This document shows, in pieces, positions 48,406 to 62,721 of a DNA stretch of 64,000 nt (its first letter is position 1; every line of letters begins with the position of its first letter). Location of the stretch: assembly GCF_010614725.1 (NCBI RefSeq), contig NZ_JAAEHL010000001.1, positions 496,001 to 560,000 on the forward strand, given 5' to 3'. The notes beneath the pieces are model-generated. The model was not told the origin of the DNA and searched no databases. It saw only the letters and a list, made by a program, of their open reading frames with translations. The DNA comes from Flavobacterium ajazii. Its GTDB lineage: Bacteria > Bacteroidota > Bacteroidia > Flavobacteriales > Flavobacteriaceae. A program made the position numbers and the translations under genes.

Positions 48406-49668
48406 TTAATATAAGTCAAAAAATTTCTTGAATGCCGGAACCACAATCGTTACAGGAGGTTCTTCTTTGATAGTAACTTTTCCCATACATGAAGTACCTT
48501 CTTTAATAAAAACATCAGGTCCTTTTGCCGAAGTCCATTTAAAGCCACTGTAAGATTCAGGATCACTTTCAAAATCCACATGAACTTCAAATAATGTTCC
48601 TGAAGCCAAAAGACTTTTTGCAAGCTGATCATTTTTGACCGATATAAGCATCCCTTGCTGTGTCACAGGAAAATCAGAAACATACGTTACTTTTCCTTTT
48701 ATAAATCCATATTCCTGTGGCTGAACGGTTGATGGAACAACTAAAGCTTCCATCCCTTTTTTAATTTTTTTACCGTCTTTTGAAGGAATGTAAAGCACAC
48801 CTTTTAATTGGGACAATTTATTTTTAGTTTTATTTTTAACCTTAAATAAAGGAGTTCCTGCACCAACCACCACCCCGGCATCGGTTAAAACTTCTACCAC
48901 TTCTCCATCGTACGGGCTTTTTATATTTCTTTGATTATCATATCGTTCTGTTAAAAATTGCAGATTTCTTTCAGCCTCAGCTATTCTTTGATTTTGCAGT
49001 GTAACTTTTTGCTGCAGATCAAATCCCAGATTATGCTGTTGATTAGAAGTTTCTACTTTTTGACCTTTCAGTCTCTGAATAGTATTTTTTGAATTTTCAA
49101 TTTGCTGTTTGGTATTGGCTACTTCAGATTTTGTTATCAGTCCTTTACTTAAAAGACCATTCTCAGATTCCAGCTGAGTATTTAAAAATAATAGTTTCTT
49201 TTTTTCTGTTTCAATTTCCCCCTGAATACTTGTCTGTGTCTGTCTAATCATTTCTCCCTGTAACTGTGTACCCTGGCTTCCATAAGTTGATAATTTTCCC
49301 ATTTCAAACTTCCTGTCAGAGACAACGGCTTTAGCATCTTCTATTTGCTGAAAAAGCTCAGGCTGCTTGATGGCTGCAATAATATCTCCTTTTTTTACCT
49401 TATCACCTATCGCAACTTTTAATTCTACCAATTGCCCTTCTGAAGTAGCAACAACTTCATGAACCTCTCCGCCCAATACTACTCCAATTACATCCAGTTT
49501 TGTTTTTACGGTACCCGCAAATGCCCAAATTACACCTGTAAACAATGCCAGTGCAACTGTAATTAGGGCAATCCATGCTTTTGGACCTGTAACTTTAATT
49601 AGCTGATCTAATTTTTCCGGAGTAGAAAGTTTTTCTAACGCCGATTTTCTGAAAAAACTTGCTGACAT
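48406..49668 (-). CDS. NHLM-type HlyD membrane-fusion protein
   Basis: A 420-residue adaptor with one N-terminal helix (about 34-52), a lipoyl half-motif (VVATSEGQLVELKVAIGDKVKKGD), a long coiled-coil hairpin (about 110-240) and the second lipoyl half plus beta-barrel (IKSPYDGEVVEVLTDAGVVV). It bridges the inner-membrane ABC pair and TolC in the periplasm. The gaps to its neighbours are 9 and 14 bp. The length and the absence of a peptidase fit the NHLM HlyD type. Confidence 0.93.
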   Translation of the reverse strand: MSASFFRKSALEKLSTPEKLDQLIKVTGPKAWIALITVALALFTGVIWAFAGTVKTKLDVIGVVLGGEVHEVVATSEGQLVELKVAIGDKVKKGDIIAAIKQPELFQQIEDAKAVVSDRKFEMGKLSTYGSQGTQLQGEMIRQTQTSIQGEIETEKKKLLFLNTQLESENGLLSKGLITKSEVANTKQQIENSKNTIQRLKGQKVETSNQQHNLGFDLQQKVTLQNQRIAEAERNLQFLTERYDNQRNIKSPYDGEVVEVLTDAGVVVGAGTPLFKVKNKTKNKLSQLKGVLYIPSKDGKKIKKGMEALVVPSTVQPQEYGFIKGKVTYVSDFPVTQQGMLISVKNDQLAKSLLASGTLFEVHVDFESDPESYSGFKWTSAKGPDVFIKEGTSCMGKVTIKEEPPVTIVVPAFKKFFDLY

Positions 49669-49682
49669 GATTTCCTGTTTTT

Positions 49683-51254
49683 TTATTGATTTTCTATTGT
49701 AGGAACAGTATAAAATGCGTTTTGAATAACATTAAAATCAAGTTTATCCTTAGATATAAGAGTTCCTGTTTCGTGTCTGATGCTTATAATTGCATTTGAA
49801 AACTGTTGTTCTGCATTGAGGTATTCGAGTTCTGAATAAGTATATCTTTCCTGAAACTGCATCAAATTGAAAAGAGTTGTCAAACCCATCTGAAACTTTG
49901 TTTGTTCATTATTAAAAGCTTCCTGATAGAATGCCATAGATTCTTTTGCTTTTTCCAGAATAAAAACACTATTAGTTAAATTATTAAATGCGATATTAAC
50001 ATTTAACTCAATGTTTCTCTGTGCATTATCACTTATAACTAACTGATCTTTTACAGCAATTTTACTGATTGAATAATTTCCTTTTGCAACATTATTATTT
50101 AATGGAAATAAAAACGTCAGTTTTGCTCCTCCCCCAACATCCTGCCCCTGATTGTTTACAAATGAGGATAAGGTTTTATCAACTCCATTTCCATTACTAG
50201 TACTTCCGTAATAAACAAATCCGGTCAAATCCAGTTGAGGTTTTAAATTATTTTCAGCCAATTGATATTGAAGTTCTACAGCTTCAGAAATCTTTTTTAT
50301 AGCTTTTAAATCGCCTCTGTTCTCCTGAGCTGCTTTAATAAATTGATTTTTATTGATATTTTCCCTGTAACCGCTTTGTGAAACTTCCGGAAAATCATTT
50401 ACAGGAACATCCAATTGCTGGCTTTCTTCATCAGATAATCCGATAGCTCTTCCCAGGGTTAACCTTGCATTGTATAGATTTTGTCTGGCCACAAAGGTTA
50501 GCCTTTCCTGATTAGTCAAATCTGCATTAATTTGAGCCAGATCTCCCTGAGGTTTTTTATCTGCCTTGATTAATTCTTTTGTCATTTCCAGCAGGTTTCG
50601 TACTCTGGTTTCATTTTGGATATAAACATCTAAACTTTTAAATGCCGTGTAATAACTCCAGTATGCAGTCCCTATTTGTAAAATTTCATATGAATTGGTA
50701 AACTCATAATCATATTTATTTTTATCAGTATAAAGATTTGAAATTCTCTCTCCTGTGGTTGCAATTCTTCTTCCTCGCCCCCTTAAAAGTGGCTGAGTCA
50801 GTGAAAAATTAGCGACTCCGGTATGGTTGCCATAAAAAGGTCCCACATATTCATTAAAGTTATTGAATGGAAAATTGCTGTCTTTATAAAGATATCTTAG
50901 GCTTACTTCTGCAATTTGTGATGTCCTGAATTTTTTTTGCAGGTTAGCCGAAAATTCAACTGAATTGGATTTTAAAGGACTATCAACATATTCGTTTCTG
51001 GGATCAGCATCGTATAAATTATAATTACTCCGCTGGTAAGAAAGTCCTGAATTTAAATTATAATCAAATGTACCTGACTGTACCTGTACACTGGCTTCTG
51101 CATTTTGTATTGTATAATAAGTGCTTATAATATTTGGATTTTTATTAAATGCTATACCCGAAATTTCGATCAAATCACATTTAATTTTAGATTGACCATA
51201 TAGACTGTTAACGGTAACGATCAATCCCATAAAAAAGAAATAGTAAGCCCTCAT
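49683..51254 (-). CDS. TolC-type outer-membrane efflux protein
   Basis: A 523-residue protein with a signal peptide (MRAYYFFFMGLIVTVNSLYG) and the two helical repeats of the OEP family (about 140-310 and 325-500), including the FSLTQPLLRGRG stretch typical of TolC homologues of Bacteroidota. It forms the outer channel for the HlyD/ABC line. It has only 31 bp to the cNMP-binding protein gene upstream and is in the same operon. A dedicated TolC is in line with a self-contained type I secretion line. Confidence 0.9.
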   Translation of the reverse strand: MRAYYFFFMGLIVTVNSLYGQSKIKCDLIEISGIAFNKNPNIISTYYTIQNAEASVQVQSGTFDYNLNSGLSYQRSNYNLYDADPRNEYVDSPLKSNSVEFSANLQKKFRTSQIAEVSLRYLYKDSNFPFNNFNEYVGPFYGNHTGVANFSLTQPLLRGRGRRIATTGERISNLYTDKNKYDYEFTNSYEILQIGTAYWSYYTAFKSLDVYIQNETRVRNLLEMTKELIKADKKPQGDLAQINADLTNQERLTFVARQNLYNARLTLGRAIGLSDEESQQLDVPVNDFPEVSQSGYRENINKNQFIKAAQENRGDLKAIKKISEAVELQYQLAENNLKPQLDLTGFVYYGSTSNGNGVDKTLSSFVNNQGQDVGGGAKLTFLFPLNNNVAKGNYSISKIAVKDQLVISDNAQRNIELNVNIAFNNLTNSVFILEKAKESMAFYQEAFNNEQTKFQMGLTTLFNLMQFQERYTYSELEYLNAEQQFSNAIISIRHETGTLISKDKLDFNVIQNAFYTVPTIENQ

Positions 51255-51285: not shown

Positions 51286-51807
51286 TTATGCCTGAGAAAA
51301 TCTATTCAAAATTTGCCCGAAGCGAGAACCTGCCTGAGCGACGCCATCTAATATTTTTGTATCAATTAAATCTTCTTCTTCAGCCGTACCGTATCCTAAC
51401 TGATCTGTGGTTTTTCTTAATCTGTTGGAAAGAAATAATGCCAGTGCATAATAAAAATTGGCTTTAAAATCTGGGTTAGTAGAAAGTCTTAATTCTACAG
51501 CCTGCCGGGAAATTTTATACACTGTTGATGCTTTTTTTGCAATTACAGAAACTGAAGGAGGTCTCGTTTCCAAAAAAGACATTTCTCCTACAACCTCTCC
51601 TGATCCTAGAGTTGCAATATCCTCTTTATCTCCATTTTCTGCACATACAGATAACTGACCAGATAATATTATAAACAAACTGTCAATAAAATTGCCTTTC
51701 TGAATTAGTTTTTCTCCAATTCCTAATTCTATTTTTTGACCATTTTGCATCATCCATTCTACATCTCTGCTATCTAACTGGCCTAAGAAAAAAAGTGCTC
51801 GTTTCAT
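51286..51807 (-). CDS. Cyclic-nucleotide-binding domain protein
   Basis: A 173-residue single-domain protein of the Crp/cNMP-binding beta-roll. The phosphate-binding cassette reads GEVVGEMSFLETRPPSVSVIA (about 70-90), keeping the Glu and the Arg that bind the cyclic phosphate. No DNA-binding domain follows; the tail (about 115-173) is helical and charged. It could bind cAMP from the adenylate cyclase encoded at 59343-61346 and act on the exporter by contact, because the ABC2 subunit also has a cNMP-like domain. That contact is inferred. It lies between precursor P1 and tolC. Confidence 0.85.
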   Translation of the reverse strand: MKRALFFLGQLDSRDVEWMMQNGQKIELGIGEKLIQKGNFIDSLFIILSGQLSVCAENGDKEDIATLGSGEVVGEMSFLETRPPSVSVIAKKASTVYKISRQAVELRLSTNPDFKANFYYALALFLSNRLRKTTDQLGYGTAEEEDLIDTKILDGVAQAGSRFGQILNRFSQA

Positions 51808-51891: not shown

Positions 51892-52230
51892 TTATTTATG
51901 CATTCTCCTTAAAGAATCATATAAACTTTCATAATCAGTAATTACAGAACCTTTTGAGATGCCTCCGTTTACCGTATCCAGCTTTTCTTCATCTAATTCA
52001 ACATCTTTAATATTTGGTCTTACAGGAATATTAATGTATATATACTCTGGATTAGACTGATCAACTACCATTATTTTTTTTCCTGTTGGGAGACTTCTTC
52101 CAAAAAACGTTTCCAATGTTTTTTCAGGATTTGCAATTAGTGATTCTTTAAAATCATTATTTTCCCAGGCTTCTGTGATAATTCTGAAAAAAACATCCTG
52201 TCCCTTTTTTTGTTCTTCTGTTAATATCAT
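51892..52230 (-). CDS. NHLP-leader RiPP precursor P1
   Basis: A 112-residue precursor. The leader (1-90) is of the nitrile-hydratase-alpha type (residues 20-30 ITEAWENNDFK, then ANPEKTLETFFG, IMVVDQSNPEYIYINIPV) and ends in VNGG. The 22-residue core (91-112) starts ISKGSVITDY and ends SLRRMHK. It has Ser and Thr but no Cys, unlike P2-P4, so a lanthionine cannot form in it. It lies between the AraC-like regulator and the cNMP protein in the export operon. Confidence 0.9.
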   Translation of the reverse strand: MILTEEQKKGQDVFFRIITEAWENNDFKESLIANPEKTLETFFGRSLPTGKKIMVVDQSNPEYIYINIPVRPNIKDVELDEEKLDTVNGGISKGSVITDYESLYDSLRRMHK

Positions 52231-52282: not shown

Positions 52283-52933
52283 TCATCTCAAAGAATTTAT
52301 TAACTCTTTAGGTGAAATATCATATTGACTTGAAAATAGTTTTGAAAAATAATGCACATCATTGTATCCTACAGAATAAGCAACTTGCGATATTGAATTT
52401 TGAATATAATTATCAATCAGATGCTTTGCTTTGTGCAATCGCAGGATGCGTATATACTTATTGGGTGTCAAATGAACCAAATTGGCTATTTTTCTATGCA
52501 ATTGTCTTTCACTAACTGCCATTTTATATGATAGTTCATACAAGTTCATATCATTTTGATTGATTGAACTGTAAATTTCTTTTTCTAAATTTATAAGCCA
52601 GTCCTGATCTAATTTTGTGACTTTCTGTGGATTTATTTTATTCAGGCACAAACTCTGAACATTTTTATTGGATTCATATATTTCAAAAATATCAGGACGA
52701 CCCTGGATTGTCAGGCTTACAGATTTTGATTTGATTTCTTTTAAAATTTCCTCAATCAGATCATTTATTTGTTTGCTGCTGGAAAATATAATTTCATTTT
52801 GAGTTTTATTATCCACAGTATCAGTACTTGCTGTAATAATTGTATCTAAAGGGCTTTTAATATTTTGAACAATCTGAATCAAAATATCCGGAGATGACCA
52901 ATCTATCGTATTTTTTGTTATTTGGTTAATCAT
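52283..52933 (-). CDS. AraC-type regulator with a degenerate kinase-dimerisation domain
   Basis: A 216-residue protein. The C-terminal 105 residues form a full AraC helix-turn-helix (LYELSYKMAVSERQLHRKIA and QVAYSVGYNDVHYFSKLFS). The N-terminal half has VQNIKSPLDTII in place of a HisKA H-box (the His is replaced) followed by a second helix (QINDLIEEILKEI). It therefore looks like the C-terminal remains of an HTCS-like kinase that keeps only dimer and DNA parts. It probably controls the operon it sits in. The target site is unknown, with the palindrome at 53752-53807 as a candidate. Confidence 0.85.
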   Translation of the reverse strand: MINQITKNTIDWSSPDILIQIVQNIKSPLDTIITASTDTVDNKTQNEIIFSSSKQINDLIEEILKEIKSKSVSLTIQGRPDIFEIYESNKNVQSLCLNKINPQKVTKLDQDWLINLEKEIYSSINQNDMNLYELSYKMAVSERQLHRKIANLVHLTPNKYIRILRLHKAKHLIDNYIQNSISQVAYSVGYNDVHYFSKLFSSQYDISPKELINSLR

Positions 52934-53037: not shown

Positions 53038-53697
53038 TTAAGCCTGAAGTTTATATTCAGCATTTTCAAAGCTGGATATTTTATCAATATATTGAGATGT
53101 TACCAAATCCTTGTTATTAGAATAGAACTCTTTTAATCCGTCATAACTCATTGCTATTGGAATGGTTTCAGAGCCTAAATAATTGACTGAATTTCCTATA
53201 ACATCTGTTTTTATTCCGAGCAGGTTCATGATTCTTAATAACTTGCTGTCACATTCTGCAAAAGCAACGCCACTTTTTTGTTCACATATAGGAGCGATTG
53301 CACATACCATTAATCTTCTGAACAAAGTTCTGTCCTTAATATTCTTTCTGGTTGCAAATCTTCCTATATGCCATACTGAGGATAAATTTTCGGGGTAATT
53401 CAAAACACTTAATGGATTTATATCAAAAATTTTCTGGATGGGAAGCCTAACTTTATAATCCCACTTAATCACCCGTATTGAGCCCTGAATATTTCCAGAA
53501 ACATCTTTGGCCACAAAAATTTCAGAATCCTTAAAGTAATTTAATTCTTCATCGTACACTTCCTGAGTGTCGTTTACAAGTTCCGTTGTAGTTACATCTT
53601 CGCAATGATGACTAAAATTTTCTTCAACTACGAATTTGGCTAATTCTGTGAGCTGATTTAATTCTAATCTTTCCAGGTAATTTTGAGTTATAGTCAT
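53038..53697 (-). CDS. GNAT acyltransferase of the LuxI/FeeM-like kind
   Basis: A 219-residue soluble protein. The central block GSIRVIKWDYKVRLPIQKIF and the HIGRFATRK strand, followed by a helix and a closing LGSETIPIAMSYDGL, match the layout of LuxI/FeeM-like acyltransferases, in which (E)xxRF lies at the acyl site. There is no full set of LuxI invariants that I can confirm. Two roles fit: making an acyl signal, or lipidating Lys in the RiPP cores as in selidamide maturases. It is the first gene of the export operon and faces a LuxR-type gene across a 337-bp gap. The residue-level match is moderate. Confidence 0.65.
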   Translation of the reverse strand: MTITQNYLERLELNQLTELAKFVVEENFSHHCEDVTTTELVNDTQEVYDEELNYFKDSEIFVAKDVSGNIQGSIRVIKWDYKVRLPIQKIFDINPLSVLNYPENLSSVWHIGRFATRKNIKDRTLFRRLMVCAIAPICEQKSGVAFAECDSKLLRIMNLLGIKTDVIGNSVNYLGSETIPIAMSYDGLKEFYSNNKDLVTSQYIDKISSFENAEYKLQA

Positions 53698-53722: not shown

Positions 53723-53807
53723 CAAATCTAATTTTCATATGGCGTTATATCACTACACTAAATAATAGTAGTTTACTGATTACCAACAAACTACCTTTTA
53801 GTGTAGT
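53723..53807 (-). promoter_or_regulatory. Promoter of the export operon with long palindromic operator
   Basis: A TAGATTTG -7 box (53723-53730) lies 22 bp from an imperfect 56-bp palindrome (53752-53807): outer arms ACTACACTAAA and TTTAGTGTAGT, inner arms GTAGTTT and AAACTAC. The spacing equals that of the HTCS operators, so an activator site is plausible. The remaining gap to 54034 is AT-rich, with runs of A before the LuxR gene. Confidence 0.55.
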
Positions 53808-54034: not shown

Positions 54035-54799
54035 ATGAAAGACCCAAATTTAAATTCGTTTTTTGATTCCAGAAATATAATTGAAGGATTAACAAACGAA
54101 GAGAAGGCACAAAAAAATGATTATTTAGAGCCTATAAAAGCATTTGCAAGAGCTACATATACAAGCATTTACGTTATAGATTATTTAGAACAAGGATTTG
54201 AGTTTGTTTCAGATAATCCACTATTTTTATGTGGAAATACGCCACAAGAAGTTCTGGAAATGGGATATGCTTTTTATTTTAAACATGTTCCTCCGGTAGA
54301 CCTGGAGTTGTTATTGAAAGTCAATTCTGTTGGATTTGATTTTTATGAAAAAATACCACACGAAGAGAGGATTCTCTATACGATCTCTTATGATTTTCAT
54401 TTAAAAAACCAAGAAGGGAAATTGATTTTGATCAACCAAAAACTTACTCCGGTTTTTTTAACCAATACCGGAAAAATATGGAAAGCTATTTGTGTTATTT
54501 CGTTATCGTCTGAACGTAAGGCGGGAAATATTAAAATTCATAAAAACGGCGAGAATAAAGTTCACAATTATAATCTGGCTAAAGATCATTGGGAAGAGTC
54601 TAAAAAAGTTTCTTTATCTAAAAGAGAAACAGAAATTTTGCAGCTTTCCAGCCGTGGTTTTACTATAAATGAAATTGCAGATGTTTTATTTATTTCGCCT
54701 GATACCGTAAAATTTCATCGACGAAAACTTTTTGAAAAATTAGAAGTCACTAATATTTCAGAAGCAATTGCATTTGTAACCGGCAATAAATTAATATAA
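54035..54799 (+). CDS. LuxR-family transcription factor with PAS-like sensor half
   Basis: A 254-residue regulator and the only gene on the plus strand. The N-terminal 170 residues (FDSRNIIEGLTNEEK, then ARATYTSIYVIDYLEQGFEFVSDN) look like a PAS domain, as in many Flavobacterium LuxR proteins. The C-terminal LuxR helix-turn-helix is clear (LSKRETEILQLSSRGFTINE and DTVKFHRRKLFEKL). It is divergent from the GNAT gene and convergent with the DoxX-like gene, 18 bp away. It is a natural candidate for the regulator of both halves of the RiPP cluster. The ligand is unknown. Confidence 0.88.
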   Translation: MKDPNLNSFFDSRNIIEGLTNEEKAQKNDYLEPIKAFARATYTSIYVIDYLEQGFEFVSDNPLFLCGNTPQEVLEMGYAFYFKHVPPVDLELLLKVNSVGFDFYEKIPHEERILYTISYDFHLKNQEGKLILINQKLTPVFLTNTGKIWKAICVISLSSERKAGNIKIHKNGENKVHNYNLAKDHWEESKKVSLSKRETEILQLSSRGFTINEIADVLFISPDTVKFHRRKLFEKLEVTNISEAIAFVTGNKLI

Positions 54800-54817: not shown

Positions 54818-55705
54818 TTAACGAACTCTTTTAAAATTTAATTTTTTGTTTCCGTTAGTGACAATCGTTAAATACTTATCATTAATCTGATATTTTCCTT
54901 TAAGCAAAATTACCTTTGCAGCATTTTGATTTACAATCGAATTTCCTTCATCGTAATTCAATTTCTTGTTATGATCTTTTACTAAATTCTTAAAAAATAT
55001 GGAATCTTTGGTAAAAGAGTACACTCCTTCATTTACTTTGATATTATTGCATTTTTGATTGATAGAGAAAGTAGTAAGAGCTTCAAAGTTTAATCGCTCA
55101 AATTCAGATGATGCATCTGTATTCTTCCATGTGCCATAAAACTGATTTTGCCCCATAAATTTATTTTTCAAATAACTTAATCCACAAAATAATCCTATAA
55201 CAACTACTATAATATAAAACCATTTTATTTTTTTTAATCGATTAACCCAATTTGGTCTTTCCTGATTAGAAAACAATGGAGGTTCTATAAAAAAACATTT
55301 ATAAAAAAGCGGAAATTCTGAAAAGAAAACAAAAAGCCCCATTATAGTCAATAAAACTGCCATGCCTTGCGCACCGCTAATGCTGTAGGCAAAATCAACC
55401 AAAAGAATATTGACCATAAAAGATAAAAACAACACAACACCTATTCTTGTTGTTTTTCTAAAAAATAACAGAAAGGCACTTACTATTTGCAATACCGCGA
55501 TAAGTATGCCGTACCAATGAGAAAAGCTATAATAATACCAGGTTAATTCAAACCCGTTTAATGATCCTATAGGTTTATCATACGTGCTGGGCTGGGCTAC
55601 AAATTGTGTTCCTAAAATTTTAGCAAAAGCATAAGATAAAATCATTGTTGCCATAAAATAGCGACAAAATGTATACAAAAAGTAATGTGTTTTATTCAAC
55701 TTCAT
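54818..55705 (-). CDS. DoxX-like membrane protein with extra C-terminal domain
   Basis: A 295-residue protein. Four to five helices in the first 175 residues (TFCRYFMATMILSYAFAKIL, then VLQIVSAFLLFFRKTTRIG) resemble DoxX/MauE-type proteins. A 110-residue soluble tail (FYGTWKNTDASSEFERLNFEAL) has a lipocalin-like beta pattern and would face the periplasm. It starts 26 bp after the dehydratase gene and is probably translated from the same message. It may act in redox or immunity, but neither can be shown. Confidence 0.6.
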   Translation of the reverse strand: MKLNKTHYFLYTFCRYFMATMILSYAFAKILGTQFVAQPSTYDKPIGSLNGFELTWYYYSFSHWYGILIAVLQIVSAFLLFFRKTTRIGVVLFLSFMVNILLVDFAYSISGAQGMAVLLTIMGLFVFFSEFPLFYKCFFIEPPLFSNQERPNWVNRLKKIKWFYIIVVVIGLFCGLSYLKNKFMGQNQFYGTWKNTDASSEFERLNFEALTTFSINQKCNNIKVNEGVYSFTKDSIFFKNLVKDHNKKLNYDEGNSIVNQNAAKVILLKGKYQINDKYLTIVTNGNKKLNFKRVR

Positions 55706-55731: not shown

Positions 55732-57708
55732 TTAAAGTTTAATAGAATCATCAATTAGTATCATTTGATTCTTAAAATCTTCAATGCTTGCGTTTCTTAA
55801 TTTGTCATATATATTTTCGATAGCATTACGTTTGATTAAATTGACACTTTTTTTGTGGGGTACATTAATCTTATTGTCCAGGACATCGATATAAAATACA
55901 GGAATATCATCTTGCAACATTTGCTCTCGTTCAAAATCTAATAGAGAAGACCAATTATTTGATACCAGATATGCTTTGGCCAGAATCTCGAGTTTTATAC
56001 CATACTTAATAGCATCAGACAGATACTCTGGCTTGTTTAGAAATTTTAAAATTTTAGAATAAACCTTAGTTTGCCTATTGATAAAACGAATTTTAAAATT
56101 ATAGAAATTAATAATCGGAGAATTTTCAGATTGAAGGTATTTTTTATTTTCTAAAATTAAATGATACAACTTTTCAAATCCTGTTTTAAATTCTTCTTCA
56201 TAATCGGCAAGATTTTCGATTGAATTATTAAAAAGAGGCTTATTTGATTTGTATAATTTTTTGTCTTCTATCTCAGATATTACAACCATCTTATCCTTAT
56301 TATAATCTTTAATTTTCAGCATCTGAATTTTACCTTCTAATGAGGTCGAAGACCCAAAACCGTACATATAATAAGGTAATTCTAATTTTTTTATTGGTAA
56401 AAGCGAAGACTCTAAAACTGTTCCTGAAATAGTATCATCATAAGTTTCATCACTCTGTAAAGCTATTAAAGGATTAAGTATAGTTTCGTGGTCTATTAAA
56501 ACAGGACTGTTTCCGGATGCTATAATGTTTTCAAAATGAAAATCTCTGGAATTCAAAAAATAAGCAATTCCTAATAAAATACCCGCTCTTTCATAATAAA
56601 GTTTAACATCGTCAATCGTTTTACACTGAGAATTTTCGACAAATTCTATCCAGCCATACGTTTCTTTATCAAGTATTTTAAACGTTTTCAGGTCTTGTTT
56701 TAAACTTATATTAATCCAGTTCAAAAATTGATTGTAAGCTTTTGTAATACCAATATTACTGGGTTTATAAACTATTTTATTTGCGTTTTTAAATTCAATA
56801 ATTACTGTAGATTCACCATTATGCAAATCTCCAGAATTAAAGTATATTTTAAAAATCGAATCCAGTTTTTTATTAAATAAAACCTCCAGATCTCTTTTAT
56901 CTGCTTCAAACCTTGTAAATATATTGGTTATAAAATGAATATATTTATCTGTTCTTGTCACCAGTTTTTTTGCCAATACCGGATATTTAAAAAATAAATA
57001 TTGATATTTATTAGATAAATTTTCTGAGACAAATTTTTTATAATTGTAATCGTCGCCAGAATCTTTACTTAAATTCTCTTTTTTAAACTGATCGAATTCG
57101 TCAAATAAAATTAAATACGCAACATTTAATAAATCTTTATGTAAAGCTATTTTTACCTGATCGATAAGATCATGCATTAATACTACATTTGATTTAGTTA
57201 AATTTTGATTTAATTTTTTTAAAAAATAATCTATAAAGGGAATAAATAGATGATAGAATGCATCTGTAGCGTTTTTCAATTCTGCAATTGATTGTATGCA
57301 TTTTGCATCTATTAAACTTAAAATTTCTTCTAAAGAAAGAATCCAGGCAGGAAAATTGATTTTTTGATCGTTTTCGTTTATGTTAGACAGCATTATAGAA
57401 ATGTCTAAATGATCCAGATTATTTACTGTACAATATTTTTGAAAAGCCAGATCTGAATCCTCTGTAGATATTGTTTTTTTCCAATAATCCAGATAATCGA
57501 AACTTTCGTTTTTATTAAAATCATATTTATTTTTTTTACTAACTGCCAATATTTCAAAAGGAGTTAGAGATTTAAAATATAATTCTTTCAAAAATCTATA
57601 ATGTACCATAGATTTTAAGATTAAAGGGTTATAAAATATCTTGTTAAAAAGAATTGCTAATCTATGTGAATAAACCACATAAATTAACAATGCTTTTTTG
57701 ATTACCAA
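55732..57708 (-). CDS. LanM-type dehydratase without cyclase domain (class II lanthipeptide dehydratase)
   Basis: A 658-residue protein that equals the N-terminal DUF4135 half of LanM. Kinase residues are present: D294/H296 (GDLHNGE), K315 (IVYKP), D389/H391/N394 (RDFHFEN) and D406/E408 (IDHET). Elimination residues are likely S435/S436 in LESSLLP (Thr is usual) and R541/R545 in RFINRQTKVY, and the domain end DIPVFY is there. LanM proteins are about 1000 residues with a C-terminal LanC; here the stop comes 57 residues after DIPVFY, with no LanC motif in any frame to the next gene. The known parallel is PoyF of polytheonamide. It should dehydrate Ser/Thr in the P2-P5 cores. Confidence 0.88.
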   Translation of the reverse strand: MVIKKALLIYVVYSHRLAILFNKIFYNPLILKSMVHYRFLKELYFKSLTPFEILAVSKKNKYDFNKNESFDYLDYWKKTISTEDSDLAFQKYCTVNNLDHLDISIMLSNINENDQKINFPAWILSLEEILSLIDAKCIQSIAELKNATDAFYHLFIPFIDYFLKKLNQNLTKSNVVLMHDLIDQVKIALHKDLLNVAYLILFDEFDQFKKENLSKDSGDDYNYKKFVSENLSNKYQYLFFKYPVLAKKLVTRTDKYIHFITNIFTRFEADKRDLEVLFNKKLDSIFKIYFNSGDLHNGESTVIIEFKNANKIVYKPSNIGITKAYNQFLNWINISLKQDLKTFKILDKETYGWIEFVENSQCKTIDDVKLYYERAGILLGIAYFLNSRDFHFENIIASGNSPVLIDHETILNPLIALQSDETYDDTISGTVLESSLLPIKKLELPYYMYGFGSSTSLEGKIQMLKIKDYNKDKMVVISEIEDKKLYKSNKPLFNNSIENLADYEEEFKTGFEKLYHLILENKKYLQSENSPIINFYNFKIRFINRQTKVYSKILKFLNKPEYLSDAIKYGIKLEILAKAYLVSNNWSSLLDFEREQMLQDDIPVFYIDVLDNKINVPHKKSVNLIKRNAIENIYDKLRNASIEDFKNQMILIDDSIKL

Positions 57709-57794
57709 TTGTTTAGCGTGGTATATTTAAGCAAATTTGATTTTTAATAACCTGAATTATAGCTTTCTATATAACACACAAAGGGAATTTTTTA

Positions 57795-58118
57795 TTAGAA
57801 ATCTGATGATGTATCAAGACATAATAAAGTCCATCCCAATTGAAATTTAAAACCTCCGGCAACAGCCTCTAATTCAGCCTCTGTTAACTCTACGCTGTCC
57901 GGGTTCGCAGGAACATTGATATAGAAAGTAGATGGATCTGTCTGATCAACAGCAACTATTTTTTTCCCTTTTAAATCTAATGGCTGACCAAATAATTTTT
58001 CGATGGCCTTCGCAGGATTGCTTACCAGTTCTTGTTTAAAAGCTTCATCTTCCCAGGCTCTGGTAATGATTTTTTTTAAGTTTGCTTCTGTATTCGATTG
58101 TGCTTGATTTACGTCCAT
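57795..58118 (-). CDS. NHLP-leader RiPP precursor P2
   Basis: A 107-residue precursor. The leader (1-89) has AWEDEAFKQELVSNPAKAIE and the VDQTDPSTFYINVP block and ends in AVAGG. The 18-residue core is FKFQLGWTLLCLDTSSDF. It differs from P3 by a single residue (Ser for Asn in the leader at PDSVEL), so the pair is a very recent tandem copy. One Cys and two Thr plus two Ser allow one lanthionine ring at most. It lies 86 bp before the dehydratase gene. Confidence 0.93.
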   Translation of the reverse strand: MDVNQAQSNTEANLKKIITRAWEDEAFKQELVSNPAKAIEKLFGQPLDLKGKKIVAVDQTDPSTFYINVPANPDSVELTEAELEAVAGGFKFQLGWTLLCLDTSSDF

Positions 58119-58170
58119 GATGTTAAATTTTAAAAATTAATATTTTATTGATTTATTTTGATGATGCTGA

Positions 58171-58494
58171 TTAGAAATCTGATGATGTATCAAGACAAAG
58201 TAATGTCCATCCCAATTGAAATTTAAAGCCTCCGGCAACAGCTTCTAATTCAGCTTCTGTTAGCTCTACATTGTCCGGGTTAGCAGGAACATTGATGTAG
58301 AAAGTAGATGGATCTGTCTGATCAACAGCAACTATTTTTTTTCCTTTTAAATCTAATGGCTGACCAAATAATTTTTCGATAGCCTTAGCAGGATTGCTTA
58401 CTAGTTCTTGTTTAAAAGCTTCATCTTCCCAGGCTCTGGTAATGATTTTTTTTAAGTTTGCTTCTGTATTCGATTGTGCTTGATTTACGTCCAT
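58171..58494 (-). CDS. NHLP-leader RiPP precursor P3
   Basis: A 107-residue precursor with the same core as P2 (FKFQLGWTLLCLDTSSDF) and the same GG cut site; only leader residue PDNVEL differs. The repeat unit of P2 and P3 is 376 bp, and the flanking AT-rich spacers are copied too. The identical core shows that dose and not variety was selected here. Confidence 0.93.
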   Translation of the reverse strand: MDVNQAQSNTEANLKKIITRAWEDEAFKQELVSNPAKAIEKLFGQPLDLKGKKIVAVDQTDPSTFYINVPANPDNVELTEAELEAVAGGFKFQLGWTLLCLDTSSDF

Positions 58495-58547
58495 GATGTT
58501 AAATTTTATAATATTAATATTTTATTGGTTTATTTTGATGTTATTGA

Positions 58548-58865
58548 TTAGAAACTTGATGATGTGTCAAGACAAAGTAATGTCCATCCCAATTCAAATT
58601 TAAAACCACCTGCAATAGCTTCTAATTCTGCCTCAGTTAACTCCATGCTTTCGTGATTTACAGGAATATTAATGTAGAAAGTAGATGGATCTGTTTGATC
58701 GACAGCTACTATTTTTTTTCCTTTTAAATCAATTGGCTGACCAAATAATTTTTCGATAGCCTGAACCGGATTACTTACTAATTCTTGTTTGAAAGACTCA
58801 TCTTCCCAAGATTTGCTAATGATTTTTTTGAAGTTTGCTTCTGAATTTGCTTGATTTGTGTTCAT
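58548..58865 (-). CDS. NHLP-leader RiPP precursor P4
   Basis: A 105-residue precursor, the older copy in the tandem set (371-bp offset from P3). The core is FKFELGWTLLCLDTSSSF, so it differs from P2/P3 at two places (Gln to Glu, Asp to Ser), while GWTLLCLDTSS is unchanged. That unchanged block is likely the part that is modified or active. Confidence 0.93.
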   Translation of the reverse strand: MNTNQANSEANFKKIISKSWEDESFKQELVSNPVQAIEKLFGQPIDLKGKKIVAVDQTDPSTFYINIPVNHESMELTEAELEAIAGGFKFELGWTLLCLDTSSSF

Positions 58866-58932
58866 AATTTTAAAATTTTAATGGTTTTTAATTAATAGTT
58901 ATAAATAAAAATGAATGATCGCATTATTTAAT

Positions 58933-59265
58933 CTAGACTATGATATAATCTTTTAATGTTGGAAAAAGACTATTTACCAAATCTCTCCAAATGGCCTGTC
59001 CTCCTCCTGCAATTATTTCTAATTGATCTTCTGTAAGTTCTATATCATCGATATTTGGTTCACTCGGAATATTCACGTAAACCTTAGATTTATCTGTCTG
59101 GTCATTAATTACCAGTGTTTTTCCTTCTGGTAAAACAATCTTGGCTCCTGTCAGATTTTCTATTGCTTTTATAGGATCTGAAACCAGGCTTTTTCTAAAA
59201 TTAATATCTTCCCAGGCTTTGGAGATTATTAATCGTAAAACTTCTTCTTCTTTTTTCTGTTCCAT
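58933..59265 (-). CDS. NHLP-leader RiPP precursor P5
   Basis: A 110-residue precursor whose leader (KAWEDINFRKSLVSDPIKAI, VNIPSEPNIDDIEL) ends in IIAGG. The 22-residue core starts GQAIWRDLVNSLF and ends LKDYIIV. It has no Cys, one Ser and one Thr, so dehydration would give only linear Dha/Dhb. It is the first of the four precursors in the row and has its own promoter (59288-59337). Confidence 0.92.
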   Translation of the reverse strand: MEQKKEEEVLRLIISKAWEDINFRKSLVSDPIKAIENLTGAKIVLPEGKTLVINDQTDKSKVYVNIPSEPNIDDIELTEDQLEIIAGGGQAIWRDLVNSLFPTLKDYIIV

Positions 59266-59287
59266 CGTTTATTCCTTTTGTACAATG

Positions 59288-59337
59288 TAAAATTAGAATT
59301 GTCTTACATTATAAAAATGCCAAATAAACTGACAAAA
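59288..59337 (-). promoter_or_regulatory. Promoter of the P5-P2 precursor run
   Basis: A TAATTTTA -7 box (59288-59295) stands 22 bases from the motif TGCCAAATAAACTGACAAAA (59318-59337). The same motif, with one mismatch and the same spacing, lies before P6 (61787-61836). Read on the coding strand it is TGTCAGTTTATTTGGCA, a weak palindrome of the TGYCAR-N5-YTGRCA kind. Confidence 0.6.
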
Positions 59338-59342
59338 AATAC

Positions 59343-61346
59343 TTAATTATGTATTTTGTCGACTAAAAATGTATTTTTATCGATATAAAAATTATTCCTT
59401 TCAACAAAATACATTTTAATTTCTCCCTTCCCTTTAGCATAAATATGACCACGGTATTGAAACAGGAAGCATTTTTCGTCTTTGATCAAATTATAAAGGG
59501 ATTCACTTATATTCACCTTGCCTTCCATTCCGTTACTTTCTACCCTGCTGGCAGTGTTTACTGTATCTCCCCAAACATCGTATTGAAACTTTTTAACCCC
59601 TACAATTCCGGCAACAATAGGTCCGGCATGTATACCGAGACGCATTTCAAAAGCTGGTTTGTTTATAACTGAATTTTGAATTTTTCTTTGTATCATAAAT
59701 TCCTGCATTTCCAATCCTGCAGATACAATATTTTTTAATGAATCTTTGTTTGGATTAGGTATACCACCTGCTGCCATATAAGAGTCCCCAATGGTTTTGA
59801 TTTTTTCTATGTTGTATTTTTCAGAGATTAAATCAAATGCTTTAAAACAAACATTGATTTCTTCAACAAGATCCTGTGGAGACATTTTTTCGGCTGTCTG
59901 AGTGAAGGATTTAAAATCGGTAAAAAGAATAGAAACCAAATTAAAATCCCGGGCATCAACAAACCCTTTTTCTTTTAATTCTTCGGCTATATCTTCAGGA
60001 AGGATATTCAGTAACAATTTTTCTGAACGGTCTTTTTCGATTTTTAATGCTTCTCTGGATTTTCTCACATAGTTTAATCTGTTCCATAAAGCAATAGCAA
60101 TTAAGAGTAAAAAGCCCAAAGAAATAATAATGATATTCCTTTGTTTTTCTTTTTTCTGGACTTCTTCTTTATGTTTAAGCTGAATTTTATGCTCTTTGGT
60201 AACATAAGCAATACTATCCATTAATAGTGCTTTTTGAAATTCCATATTAAGAATTTTATTGGAAGTTTCTTCAGACTGCAAGCTGTCGTTATATGCATTG
60301 GATTTTTCGTAATACTCTAAGGCTAATGTAGTTTTTCCAGAAGATTTATATGCTTCATAAAGACACTTACAAGCCTCTTTTTTAACAGATAATGCTCCCA
60401 AATTTTCTGCAATTTTGAGTCCTGTTTTGCATTTTTTTATTGCCAAATTACTTTTTCCATCCTTATTTAATATGGTACCAATGGCTACTTCGGAGATACT
60501 CGTATATTGTAAACTGTTGATTTTTTGCGATGATTTTAAACAGTGGTTATAATAAGAAAGAGATTTTGTAAAATCATCCTGAAAATTAAATAGTTCTCCT
60601 AAATTATACAGAACTTCTATTTTTTTTTGTTCATCCTTTATTTTTTCTGCAATCGCTAAAGCCTGACTGAAGTATTCATAAGCTCTGGCATAATGTTTTT
60701 GCATCATGTAAATTTTACCTGCACCGTTTAAATTATGAGAAATTCCTGCAGAATCTTTTAACTCCCTATAAAAGGCATTAGCTTTTTTAGAATAAATCAT
60801 GGCATTGGAATAATCTTTTATATCGATATATATTCCACCAATATTTTGCGTTGTTGCAGCAATAATTTTCTTATCGCCTATTTTTTTCTGAATTTTAATT
60901 GCCTGATTGTAGAATTCTAGGGCTTTAGGATAATTACCTAAATAATAATAAACAGCCCCCATGTTGTTTAATGCAGAAGAAACTCCTTTTTTGTAATCAA
61001 TCTTCTCATAAGTTTCTTTACATTTCGTATAAAAAGAAAGGGCTTTTAAATAATCGCCCTGATAATAATATGTTATTGCAATTTTATTGTAACTGTTTCC
61101 AATACCTTTTTGATTGCCTGACTTTAGGTAAATTTTAAAACTCTTTTGAAAAAGCATCATCGCATCTGAAAATTTCCCTGCGTTTTGTTGCTTTTCCCCT
61201 ATACTCAACAAACTATCTGCAATTCTTATATTTTCAAGGTTGAGATTTGCACTTCTTTTGCCTTGATTTGTTTGTGCATGTAATTTTATACTTGTTCCGA
61301 ATATCAGAAAAAGAAATAAAATTGAATATGTATGCAAAACTTTCAC
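59343..61346 (-). CDS. TPR-containing class III adenylate cyclase
   Basis: A 667-residue protein with a signal-like helix (1-25), eight or so TPR repeats (about 40-370, for example AITYYYQGDYLKALSFYTKC), a membrane helix (about 403-425), a coiled coil and a C-terminal cyclase domain (about 470-650). Metal residues are in SILFTDFKSFT and IGDSYMA; Lys of KIKTIGDS and Asp of YDVWGDTVN point to ATP, and VNTASRVES gives the transition-state Asn and Arg. It is thus an adenylate cyclase with a periplasmic TPR sensor. It stands between two precursor genes. The start of 61346 lies 22 bp from a strong hairpin. Confidence 0.9.
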   Translation of the reverse strand: MKVLHTYSILFLFLIFGTSIKLHAQTNQGKRSANLNLENIRIADSLLSIGEKQQNAGKFSDAMMLFQKSFKIYLKSGNQKGIGNSYNKIAITYYYQGDYLKALSFYTKCKETYEKIDYKKGVSSALNNMGAVYYYLGNYPKALEFYNQAIKIQKKIGDKKIIAATTQNIGGIYIDIKDYSNAMIYSKKANAFYRELKDSAGISHNLNGAGKIYMMQKHYARAYEYFSQALAIAEKIKDEQKKIEVLYNLGELFNFQDDFTKSLSYYNHCLKSSQKINSLQYTSISEVAIGTILNKDGKSNLAIKKCKTGLKIAENLGALSVKKEACKCLYEAYKSSGKTTLALEYYEKSNAYNDSLQSEETSNKILNMEFQKALLMDSIAYVTKEHKIQLKHKEEVQKKEKQRNIIIISLGFLLLIAIALWNRLNYVRKSREALKIEKDRSEKLLLNILPEDIAEELKEKGFVDARDFNLVSILFTDFKSFTQTAEKMSPQDLVEEINVCFKAFDLISEKYNIEKIKTIGDSYMAAGGIPNPNKDSLKNIVSAGLEMQEFMIQRKIQNSVINKPAFEMRLGIHAGPIVAGIVGVKKFQYDVWGDTVNTASRVESNGMEGKVNISESLYNLIKDEKCFLFQYRGHIYAKGKGEIKMYFVERNNFYIDKNTFLVDKIHN

Positions 61347-61367
61347 TATTCATTTATGTTTAATTTT

Positions 61368-61401
61368 AAAACGTATATGTTCAAAAGGAGCATATACGTT
61401 T
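61368..61401 (-). terminator. Hairpin between P6 and the cyclase gene
   Basis: An 11-bp perfect stem (AAACGTATATG / CATATACGTTT) with a 12-base loop. It lies 36 bp after the P6 stop and 22 bp before the cyclase start. Only TTTTAAAATT follows, so it may be a partial terminator or an mRNA stabiliser that gives more precursor than cyclase. Confidence 0.5.
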
Positions 61402-61436
61402 CACAATGAGTTTTCTGTTTATCCGGCAAAAAGTGA

Positions 61437-61748
61437 CTATTTAACAATAATTGGAGGTGTTTGTCCATCACCACCGCCTCCGGAAATGATGTCTAATTGT
61501 TCTTCCGATAATTCTGTATCATCTTCAACTTCAACTAAATTAGGATTAGGCGAAATATTAATAAATATTACAGATGTATTCGACTGGTCTACAACACTAA
61601 TTGTTTTTCCTTCAGGCAAATGGATTGGCTGTCCTAAAAAGTTTTCTAATGTTGCAACCGGGCTGGTTATTAAATTGTTCTTAAACACAGGATCTGTCCA
61701 TGCTTTTTTAACAATAGATTCTAAAATTCTTTCATCAGTTAATTCCAT
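61437..61748 (-). CDS. NHLP-leader RiPP precursor P6
   Basis: A 103-residue precursor with an NHLP leader (KAWTDPVFKNNLITSPVATL, VVDQSNTSVIFINISP) ending in IISGG. The core is short and unlike the others (GGDGQTPPIIVK): no Cys, one Thr, two Pro and a C-terminal Lys. The true cut may be one or two Gly later. It has its own copy of the shared promoter motif, so it is produced under the same control as P5-P2. Confidence 0.88.
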   Translation of the reverse strand: MELTDERILESIVKKAWTDPVFKNNLITSPVATLENFLGQPIHLPEGKTISVVDQSNTSVIFINISPNPNLVEVEDDTELSEEQLDIISGGGGDGQTPPIIVK

Positions 61749-61786
61749 TTTTCTATATTTATGATTAAAGTTATTTTTTGTTATTG

Positions 61787-61836
61787 TAAAATTATCAGCA
61801 TAAAATAATATAGAATTGCCAAATAGACTGACAAAA
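61787..61836 (-). promoter_or_regulatory. Promoter of P6
   Basis: TAATTTTA (61787-61794) and the motif TGCCAAATAGACTGACAAAA (61817-61836) have the same spacing as before P5. One base differs in the 20-bp motif. Confidence 0.6.
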
Positions 61837-61914
61837 GATCAAACAGCTTATTTTTTACCTTTTTTTGTAGTATTACATAATTTCTTTTTTCATATACTAT
61901 AGACCTTTCTTACC

Positions 61915-61951
61915 ACAAAAAAACTGCATTAAAATTTTCATTCTAATACAG
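61915..61951 (-). terminator. Rho-independent terminator after the ThiF-like gene
   Basis: On the minus strand CTGTATTA and TAATGCAG (one G-T pair) form an 8-bp stem followed by a T-rich run. It stands 24 bp after the ThiF-like stop, so that gene is probably a unit of its own. Confidence 0.6.
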
Positions 61952-61974
61952 CTTTTAAATTAATTTTTGAAATT

Positions 61975-62721
61975 CTATTTGATTGTTGTAAGGTAAAATT
62001 CCGGGAATTTTTTTACAGGTTTGTTGGTACTGATATCAAACGCAATTTTAGTACAGACAGCAGCTACAAGCCAGGATGCTATTGACAGCTGAGGAGGAGG
62101 AAGTTTTTTATTTTCTTTTTTATATTTATCGATTATTTCCTCCAGCCATTCCTGAGGATTTCCGGAATATCTCATATAGTTTGAAACATAATCTACTACA
62201 TTAACTTCGTTGAATTTTTCATCAGGTTTTTCTAAAGTATCTAACCCCTGATTTTCCGGGATTATTAATACCAGAGCTCCCCATCCCAAATTATAAGGAT
62301 GTAGAACCGGAATTTTTTTCTTTTGACATATAGCATCAAATAACAATGGAACTTCAGAGGTAAAATCTAAAGCATTAATAGCAATTTTATGATCCTTAAT
62401 ATATTTATCAACATTCTCAGGTGTTAAAAAACAATTATGTACCGTAATCTTAGCTTCTTTGTTAATTGAAAGTAATCTTTCTTTAATAGCTTCTACTTTA
62501 GCTGTTGAGATATTATTTTCAACATAATTTTGTCTGTTTAAATTAGACAATTCTACAACATCGCCATCAATTATTGTAATTTTTTCAAAACCTAATCTTA
62601 GCAAACACTCTGCAATAACGCTACCAATACCCGCTCCACCCAAAAGGATAGAAGTTCTTTTTAGCTTTTTTTGTTCTTCCTGAGATATATAAAGTCTATT
62701 TCTGCTGTAGTTATTTTTCAT
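61975..62721 (-). CDS. ThiF/MoeB/MccB-like adenylyltransferase
   Basis: A 248-residue E1-like protein. It has the ATP-binding GGAGIGSV (about 28-35), the acidic DGDVVELSNLNRQNYV with the Arg-finger-like RQ, and a helix with STAKVEAIKERL. No CxxC zinc pairs and no catalytic Cys loop were seen, so it resembles the adenylate-forming core without sulfur or ubiquitin transfer. MccB of microcin C7 uses this fold to adenylate a peptide C-terminus. A C-terminal activation of a core is thus plausible, but a housekeeping sulfur-carrier role is possible too. The upstream TATTTTTG (62733-62740) is a likely -7 box. Confidence 0.85.
   Translation of the reverse strand: MKNNYSRNRLYISQEEQKKLKRTSILLGGAGIGSVIAECLLRLGFEKITIIDGDVVELSNLNRQNYVENNISTAKVEAIKERLLSINKEAKITVHNCFLTPENVDKYIKDHKIAINALDFTSEVPLLFDAICQKKKIPVLHPYNLGWGALVLIIPENQGLDTLEKPDEKFNEVNVVDYVSNYMRYSGNPQEWLEEIIDKYKKENKKLPPPQLSIASWLVAAVCTKIAFDISTNKPVKKFPEFYLTTIK

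Follow-up and report, generated by a model that had tools for sequence, protein, structure and literature searches.

A conserved thiF-luxR-gnat module, probably a LuxI/LuxR-like switch, within an NHLP peptide cluster of Flavobacterium ajazii

The window analyzed here, a 64,000-nucleotide stretch of Flavobacterium ajazii (contig NZ_JAAEHL010000001.1, positions 496,001 to 560,000), carries a cluster for ribosomally synthesized and posttranslationally modified peptides (RiPPs) with nitrile hydratase-type leader peptides (NHLP). The cluster spans 42149-62721 of the window, with almost all genes on the minus strand (genome size, 5.75 Mb), and includes three genes, thiF, luxR, and gnat. We consider it probable that two systems are wired together at this locus, in that these three genes would form a LuxI/LuxR-like switch that controls a separate NHLP peptide pathway. 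In the initial annotation, the GNAT and ThiF enzymes had been read as tailoring enzymes of the peptide, a role that, judged from their distribution, is most likely wrong. The module and the genes that follow gnat are listed below in window coordinates.

51892..52230, minus strand: preA, NHLP-leader peptide of the module-side operon, with a variable core and a conserved leader (TIGR03793, 61.3 bits)
52283..52933, minus strand: AraC-type regulator, next after gnat on the same strand (HTH_18, 3e-17; gene order conserved)
53038..53697, minus strand: gnat, FeeM/LuxI-like GNAT of 219 aa, a proposed N-acyl amino acid synthase (FeeM, TIGR03694, and LasI matches)
53723..53730, minus strand: -7 promoter element of gnat, TAGATTTG (pattern search)
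53752..53769, minus strand: proximal palindromic operator, lux-box-like, with the -7 element 21 nt on (matrix score, 16.1)
53790..53807, minus strand: distal palindromic operator, 38 bp from the proximal copy (matrix score, 21.3; exact pattern match)
54035..54799, plus strand: luxR, LuxR-type regulator with a GerE helix-turn-helix (HTH) and an N-terminal part that is perhaps PAS-like (Pfam scan of 12 members)
61975..62721, minus strand: thiF, ThiF/E1-like adenylyltransferase of the module, without a RiPP recognition element (RRE) (ThiF, E value of 1e-34)

FeeM enzymes make N-acyl amino acids, and lux boxes lie at the -42 position. In the proposed mechanism, the GNAT would use an acyl donor to make an N-acyl amino acid, and ThiF would adenylate the carboxylate of this small molecule, which would then close into, or couple to, the active signal, in the form of a lactam, lactone, or amide. 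This signal would presumably be sensed by the LuxR-type regulator, which would bind the palindrome pair between luxR and gnat, of which the proximal copy appears placed so as to activate the TAGATTTG promoter. As a result, gnat would be fired in a positive feedback, together with the same-strand genes for the AraC regulator, preA, a cyclic-nucleotide-binding protein, and the NHLP export line, presumably by read-through. In the peptide pathway, the stand-alone LanM dehydratase (LanM-N) would phosphorylate and dehydrate Ser/Thr of the precursors preB to preD; without LanC, the product would be linear or would close without a cyclase at a T-x-x-C motif, and the C39 exporter would cut the leader off at GG. 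The signal chemistry and autoinduction are what we infer.

With the ThiF protein as the query (E value of 1e-40 or better), 14 of the 397 family genomes gave a match, as did 7 of 102 from the genus and 12 of 395 from the phylum; two of the matching genomes belong to another family of the order and one to another family of the class. These searches gave 28 thiF loci outside the window (14 from the family, 5 new from the genus, and 9 from the phylum), and thiF, luxR, and gnat were all present in 22 of them. Among the other loci, which we refer to by genome number, G224 and G724b are truncated at contig ends, luxR is absent from G320b and G033 (which have gnat and thiF), G724a has thiF alone, and G710 has luxR and thiF with no gnat match. 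Across 19 loci, the ThiF, GNAT, and LuxR distance matrices correlated at 0.80 to 0.86, a level reached in 0 of 2,000 permutations. By these sequence comparisons, thiF, luxR, and gnat make up one co-evolving module. A divergent gnat-thiF pair without luxR or typical boxes was also seen (L066:7950-9426 and L068:9752-11162) and is perhaps a second branch of the module. We considered a conserved small peptide substrate inside the module and rejected it: the thiF-luxR gap of stand-alone modules mostly runs from a few bases to ~75, and the luxR-gnat gap holds the operators.

In all 23 loci with both genes (window included), luxR and gnat are divergent, and an 18-bp palindrome, ACTACAC-N4-GTGTAGT, lies between them. 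A matrix seeded by a consensus read by eye and built from 17 luxR-gnat intergenic regions, including that of the window, found a site above 14 in all 17 and a pair 37 to 39 bp apart in 12. Six loci with luxR and gnat that were fetched later (G820, G575, G785, G768, G789, and G585) had sites there in every case, with G575, G789, and G820 looking like near relatives of matrix-training loci. In 790,879 bases of fetched loci, 65 sites scored above 12, part of which trained the matrix, compared to 6 to 25 in ten shuffles; the distal window operator (21.3) exceeded the best of 20 window shuffles (16.2), with the proximal one (16.1) just under it. Furthermore, over all loci, 91 boxes scored above 12, and a TANNTTTR element, taken from the Bacteroidota -7 consensus, occurred within 14 to 32 nt of 44 of them, each time at a distance of exactly 21 nt; such an element is present in 3% of random 26-nt windows. 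The luxR-gnat box has a -7 element in 22 of 23 loci, and boxes without one are mostly distal copies. The conservation of the module and the geometry of its operators and promoter can be read directly from the sequences.

Boxes were also found before thiF in 13 loci (weakly, at 12 to 13, in G171, G019, G724b, and G785), and a third box set lies at the gnat 3' end, before the next operon, in 13 loci. None of the NHLP loci has this third set, so that in these loci the gnat promoter may serve the genes that follow; the gnat-AraC-preA-export gaps are short, and the window operator pair faces gnat, AraC, preA, and the export line. Genome-wide, the window's own genome holds only its two window sites within 1 mismatch of ACTACNNTWWNGTGTAGT. 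The combined box-plus-promoter pattern was matched exactly in 19 of 22 module genomes (of the rest, G000 and G096 match with one mismatch and G585 not at all) and in 0 of 22 chosen others, namely, 21 genomes without a thiF match in the family and genus searches plus G485, vouched for only at its NHLP locus. With up to 1 mismatch, the 44 genomes gave 65 matches, compared to 9 for a reversed control; the 22 other genomes account for 6 of these, three being one shared sequence.

Two further candidates were rejected. The box before preF (window 61854-61871) scores 10.8, and 13.7 in G127 and G820, which is within the shuffle range, with no -7 element at 21 nt in G127 or G820; the own-genome pattern match at C28:425550 is not a box and recurs in genomes without the module. 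Separately, a box with promoter element stands away from the module at G259:C1:249147, G320:C5:13658, G248:C1:5547539, and G452:C20:24667 and 25402, and these are candidates for a trans regulon or, in G452, for a second module copy. A variant box, AATACCCAATTGGGTAAT, accompanies luxR and thiF in G710 (L148:14153-15913), a genome that belongs to a different family of the class; the operator code may have drifted there together with the regulator.

The module has diverse neighbors. NHLP clusters share the locus with a complete module in G127, G179, G404, G820, and G785, while G477 and G411 have a complete module with only a leader-only preA and a DUF7005 gene kept. At the other 15 of the 22 complete modules, no NHLP gene was found in the fetched stretch, which is short (7 to 11 kb) in G259, G273, and G768. 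Class I lanthipeptide genes lie near the module in G456 (LanB, 1.8e-87; LANC_like, 1.8e-25), in G585 (a LanB/LanC cluster), and in G575 (the same type, judged by LanB), and a grasp-with-spasm pair does so in G353 (484 and 537 bits). Nonribosomal peptide synthetase (NRPS) genes follow gnat in G096 and precede thiF in G452, TauD and phosphopantetheinyl transferase genes are present in G248, and a C39 exporter stands beside the module in G001 with proteins of no known family. HTTM proteins were found in G019 and, just below the cutoff, in G320a; a neighbor protein scanned in G171 gave no family match.

These neighborhoods bear on an alternative in which the product of the module is not a signal but a natural product derived from an N-acyl amino acid, with LuxR as a pathway regulator answering another cue. 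FeeM-type enzymes are known for such products, and the LuxR protein is without an autoinducer-binding domain. Moreover, nine proteins chosen near the module (in G353, G456, G273, G585, G001, G019, G320a, G710, and G768) all have a carboxypeptidase-regulatory-like domain, and six of them match an outer-membrane barrel family, as an uptake receptor might. Nonetheless, the same operator pair also stands before unlike neighboring operons in many genomes, an arrangement more in keeping with a switch than with a self-contained pathway to a product. We regard the natural product as a rather unlikely explanation.

The tailoring role proposed by the initial annotation, in which the GNAT acylates the NHLP peptide and ThiF activates its C terminus, draws on the position of gnat and thiF inside the NHLP cluster in the window, G127, G404, G820, G785, and G179, on preA, which tracks the module, and on a GNAT that acylates a Lys of the LanM-modified peptide NpuA (PMC13060382). 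However, no NHLP gene was found near 15 of the complete modules in the stretches fetched, a genome-wide search at an E value of 1e-6 gave no NHLP leader for 10 of the 14 thiF carriers in the family sample, and in eight leader-free genomes that were aligned, ThiF is 53 to 66% and GNAT 44 to 55% identical to those of the window. Conversely, G485 has LanM-N and NHLP precursors with no thiF, luxR, or gnat within the 40 kb fetched. The characterized NpuN enzyme was modeled as a tandem GNAT (PMC13060382), whereas the window GNAT has 219 aa.

The ThiF protein itself also speaks against tailoring. Its ThiF-like nature, as first annotated, was borne out by the profile search, and PDB entries 9egb and 9egc match it over nearly its full length (residues 1 to 247; E value of 5e-109). 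In the alignment with MccB, window residue 3 corresponds to MccB 90 to 93, and in that with PaaA, window residue 17 corresponds to PaaA 127. The protein starts where the MccB adenylation domain starts, leaving no room for an N-terminal RRE, and the fusion of such an element to the adenylation domain, as in MccB and PaaA, was not found in it. Altogether, we judge tailoring by GNAT and ThiF improbable. Of the linear dehydrated peptide with acyl and/or C-terminal changes predicted by the initial annotation, the dehydration is likely (phosphorylation and elimination residues kept), and the acyl and C-terminal changes found no support.

Several observations weigh against the switch that we favor. 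The GNAT assignment as FeeM/LuxI-like is weak. FeeM matched 10 of 14 GNAT family members (best, 2.4e-5) and Autoind_synth 1 of 14 (at 0.01), and the earlier call of a LuxI/FeeM-like GNAT fares better for the family than for the window protein; for the latter alone, FeeM reached an E value of 0.018 and TIGR03694 one of 3.8e-5, both below the cutoff. LasI was its only PDB profile match (E value of 0.26), and a single-sequence AlphaFold model had a pLDDT (predicted local distance difference test) of 37.7. Among 12 LuxR members scanned, all had the GerE HTH and 3 weakly matched PAS_3, with no autoinducer-binding domain at an E value of 0.1, so that ligand sensing is a guess. With regard to the operators, the -7 element is missing from the luxR-gnat box of G273, and whereas 13 relatives carry a box upstream of thiF, none above 12 occurs there in the window. 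When 2 mismatches were allowed, the palindrome pattern occurred 31 times in the window's own genome, compared to 128 times for the reversed control, which means that only near-exact matches count. Several of the relatives' loci are closely related, and their counts are consequently not independent. The recurring outer-membrane-like protein might point to uptake of a common product. Finally, NHLP leaders (E value of 1e-6) occur in 4 of the 397 family genomes (G000, G127, G179, and G320), and all four also carry thiF; in G320, the NHLP cluster lies apart from thiF and shows no LanM-N.

The distribution of preA belongs among these points. It lies between AraC and the cyclic-nucleotide-binding gene in all six NHLP clusters with the module, and as a leader-only form it follows gnat in G477 and G411, so that it stands beside AraC or gnat in 8 of 8 NHLP-type or remnant loci with the module. 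In two NHLP clusters that have no module next to them (G485 and G320N1), this position is not occupied by preA; two G320N1 precursors elsewhere match preA best, at 39 to 43%. Such tracking of the module would fit a direct link of the module enzymes with an NHLP peptide. Between G477 and G411, the leader-only preA differs by 1 replacement and 12 silent codon changes (dN, 0.005; dS, 0.31), and neither the export line nor LanM was found in the fetched loci of the two species. preA cores vary, and the G785 preA has almost none, whereas the leader is conserved. On this basis, preA could be either an accessory protein of the NHLP fold or the sole peptide touched by the module enzymes. The leader-only form has 86 aa and no GG or core (L104:10016-10276; L106 and L107 joined, 28399-28659).

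The other genes of the cluster are as follows.

42149..43270, minus strand: DUF7005 protein with an HExxH motif (PF22541, 1.5e-119; HExxH in 10 of 10 compared proteins)
43267..46179, minus strand: second ABC permease/ATPase, at the NHLP ABC2 place (ABC_tran and ABC_membrane from Pfam)
46192..48396, minus strand: NHLP ABC exporter with C39 peptidase (TIGR03796 [NHLM_micro_ABC1], 1040 bits; Peptidase_C39, 2e-37)
48406..49668, minus strand: NHLP HlyD-type adaptor (TIGR03794 [NHLM_micro_HlyD], 300.7 bits)
49683..51254, minus strand: TolC-type outer membrane export protein (OEP, 2.8e-30)
51286..51807, minus strand: cyclic-nucleotide-binding protein (PF00027, 8e-17)
54818..55705, minus strand: DoxX/MauE-like membrane protein adjoining the dehydratase (DoxX, 0.008, below cutoff)
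55732..57708, minus strand: stand-alone LanM dehydratase, LanM-N (DUF4135, 5e-93; TIGR03897; catalytic residues)
57795..58118, minus strand: preB, NHLP precursor with core FKFQLGWTLLCLDTSSDF (TIGR03793, 62.7 bits)
58171..58494, minus strand: preC, NHLP precursor with the same core as preB (NHLP leader profile; core comparison)
58548..58865, minus strand: preD, NHLP precursor with core FKFELGWTLLCLDTSSSF (NHLP leader profile)
58933..59265, minus strand: preE, NHLP precursor kept among relatives (NHLP leader profile; relatives' loci)
59343..61346, minus strand: TPR protein with a class III adenylate/guanylate cyclase domain (Guanylate_cyc, 5e-54)
61437..61748, minus strand: preF, NHLP precursor (TIGR03793, 49.3 to 49.9 bits, with a cutoff of 50.9)

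Profiles and a genome-wide leader search agree with the initial annotation of an NHLP/proteusin-type RiPP cluster with a stand-alone LanM dehydratase. The window dehydratase covers TIGR03897 (LanM) only at positions 2 to 519 of 932 and thus ends where LanC would start, as had been noted; the separate LanC gene that would have spoken against that reading was sought with LANC_like, and there was no match at an E value of 0.001 anywhere in the window's genome. A Met at ~57609 is the start in the G404 relative and is probably the true start, giving a protein of ~625 aa. The alignment with CylM from the PDB spans residues 67 to 652, and equivalents of CylM D252, H254, K274, D347, H349, N352, D364, R506, and T512, with the numbering counted by hand on the alignment, are all present. 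These are active-site residues according to PMC4550811 (eLife 07607), and their equivalents are kept in all six LanM-N proteins compared (window, G404, G127, G179, G485, and G785). The catalytic residues and the missing LanC match are thus plain from the alignments and profile search. Since the residues for both phosphorylation and elimination are kept, dehydration rather than phosphorylation alone is expected, and the product of the NHLP pathway is likely a dehydrated peptide. Phosphorylation only has a precedent in EmbM of phospeptin, which is also without a cyclase and whose peptide has a Nif11-type leader and a Cys-free core (PMC9505594), but is quite improbable here, as EmbM is reported there without the phosphate-elimination residues, whereas the D252, H254, R506, and T512 equivalents are kept in the window enzyme and five relatives.

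LanM-N matched 4 of the 397 family genomes, one of them (G364) by a marginal broken fragment. A LanM-N scan of genome contigs gave 14 loci; of the 13 besides L023, 12 had LanM open reading frames of at least 933 aa, the one at L032 having 530 aa, and ThiF, GNAT, and LuxR had no match at any of the 13. As to the DoxX-like protein next to the dehydratase, no DoxX matched in the G127 and G404 loci, and one 26% identical to that of the window adjoins a 957-aa LanM in G179 contig 2 (L017 and L018).

Genome-wide, six NHLP leaders were found at an E value of 0.01, all inside this cluster. Five passed the curated TIGR03793 cutoff, with preF just under it, and all six precursors have a GG site. The six precursors of the initial annotation are accordingly present, five inside 55732-62721 and the sixth (preA) beyond luxR, and so are the GNAT and the full export line that it had placed across the luxR gene, the latter consisting of the C39 exporter (TIGR03796) and adaptor (TIGR03794), both above their curated cutoffs, OEP, and the second ABC protein. 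A W-[TS]-x-x-C motif occurs in the window cores FKFQLGWTLLCLDTSSDF and FKFELGWTLLCLDTSSSF and in the G404 core KGVEISWSFICVTW, where T-x-x-C rings might form without the help of a cyclase.

The chassis genes of G127, a member of the same genus, share 68 to 94% identity with those of the window, but its dehydratase shares just 34%, and four other precursors stand in place of preB to preD. The G404 dehydratase is 50% identical and comes with three precursors of its own. G820 has no LanM-N match, and its cassette place holds two proteins of 393 to 394 aa (L140:8441-10879) with no Pfam match at an E value of 0.001. The dehydratase and precursors differ while the chassis stays, and they look like an exchangeable cassette within a fixed chassis. 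A protein of ~393 aa also occurs in the G127 cassette slot (L013:17096-18274), beside LanM-N, and the G179 slot holds a UDP-glycosyltransferase-like protein.

The TPR/class III cyclase protein and the small cyclic-nucleotide-binding protein accompany all eight NHLP clusters with an export line (window, G127, G404, G820, G785, G485, G179, and G320N1), hinting at cyclic-nucleotide control of RiPP export. The DUF7005 gene closes the export operon; its HExxH and a subsequent ELIADY are kept in 10 of 10 loci compared, and it is retained in G477 and G411, where no exporter was found.

The portable LuxI/LuxR-like switch is the better story here, one known from sequence only. We see about an even chance that the module represents a new form of cell-cell signaling in Bacteroidota, with a GNAT-plus-ThiF synthase, a non-homoserine N-acyl signal, a LuxR-HTH sensor without the classical ligand domain, and its own operator code, acting as a portable master switch over biosynthetic clusters of the RiPP, NRPS, and other types. 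If so, it could account for acyl-homoserine lactone-like activity in Flavobacteriaceae without a luxI gene. For Tenacibaculum maritimum, acyl-homoserine lactone production was reported with no homologous biosynthesis gene detected in the genome (PMC5561996), and the synthase-regulator-operator module, probably in the same bacterial family, offers a concrete gene set to test. In that case, a single small signal might activate silent RiPP and NRPS clusters across many Bacteroidota. Moreover, a GNAT or ThiF gene located next to precursors does not necessarily encode a tailoring enzyme.

Among known systems, the unnamed THIF-type protein of PDB entries 9egb, 9egc, and 9egd belongs to the same family as the window ThiF. 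We found no paper on it or on the module in a search poor in subscription journals; given these entries, others may already study the module. MccB, PaaA, and IndF (the last from PMC12150305) share the E1-like adenylation fold; in contrast to these RiPP enzymes, the window ThiF has no N-terminal RRE, and its partners are gnat and luxR, not a precursor peptide. The selidamide enzymes NpuN and PhaN are likewise GNATs near an NHLP/LanM cluster; NpuN, for which a tandem GNAT has been modeled, acylates its peptide at Lys1, whereas the window GNAT is short and FeeM/LuxI-like, with relatives mostly lacking NHLP genes nearby. PoyF of polytheonamide and EmbM of phospeptin are, like the window enzyme, LanM-type dehydratases without LanC; here, the dehydratase sits in a cassette that varies between species within a fixed export chassis and, unlike EmbM as reported, keeps the elimination residues. 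From LuxI/LuxR, the module differs by its second, ThiF-type gene, a LuxR protein without an autoinducer-binding domain, its own operator sequence, its Bacteroidota host, and GNATs of which only 1 of 14 matched Autoind_synth, at 0.01. In both systems, the gene of a LuxR-HTH regulator is divergent from that of an acyltransferase, which in the module bears a weak resemblance to the LuxI/FeeM branch, and a palindromic operator directly precedes the synthase promoter.

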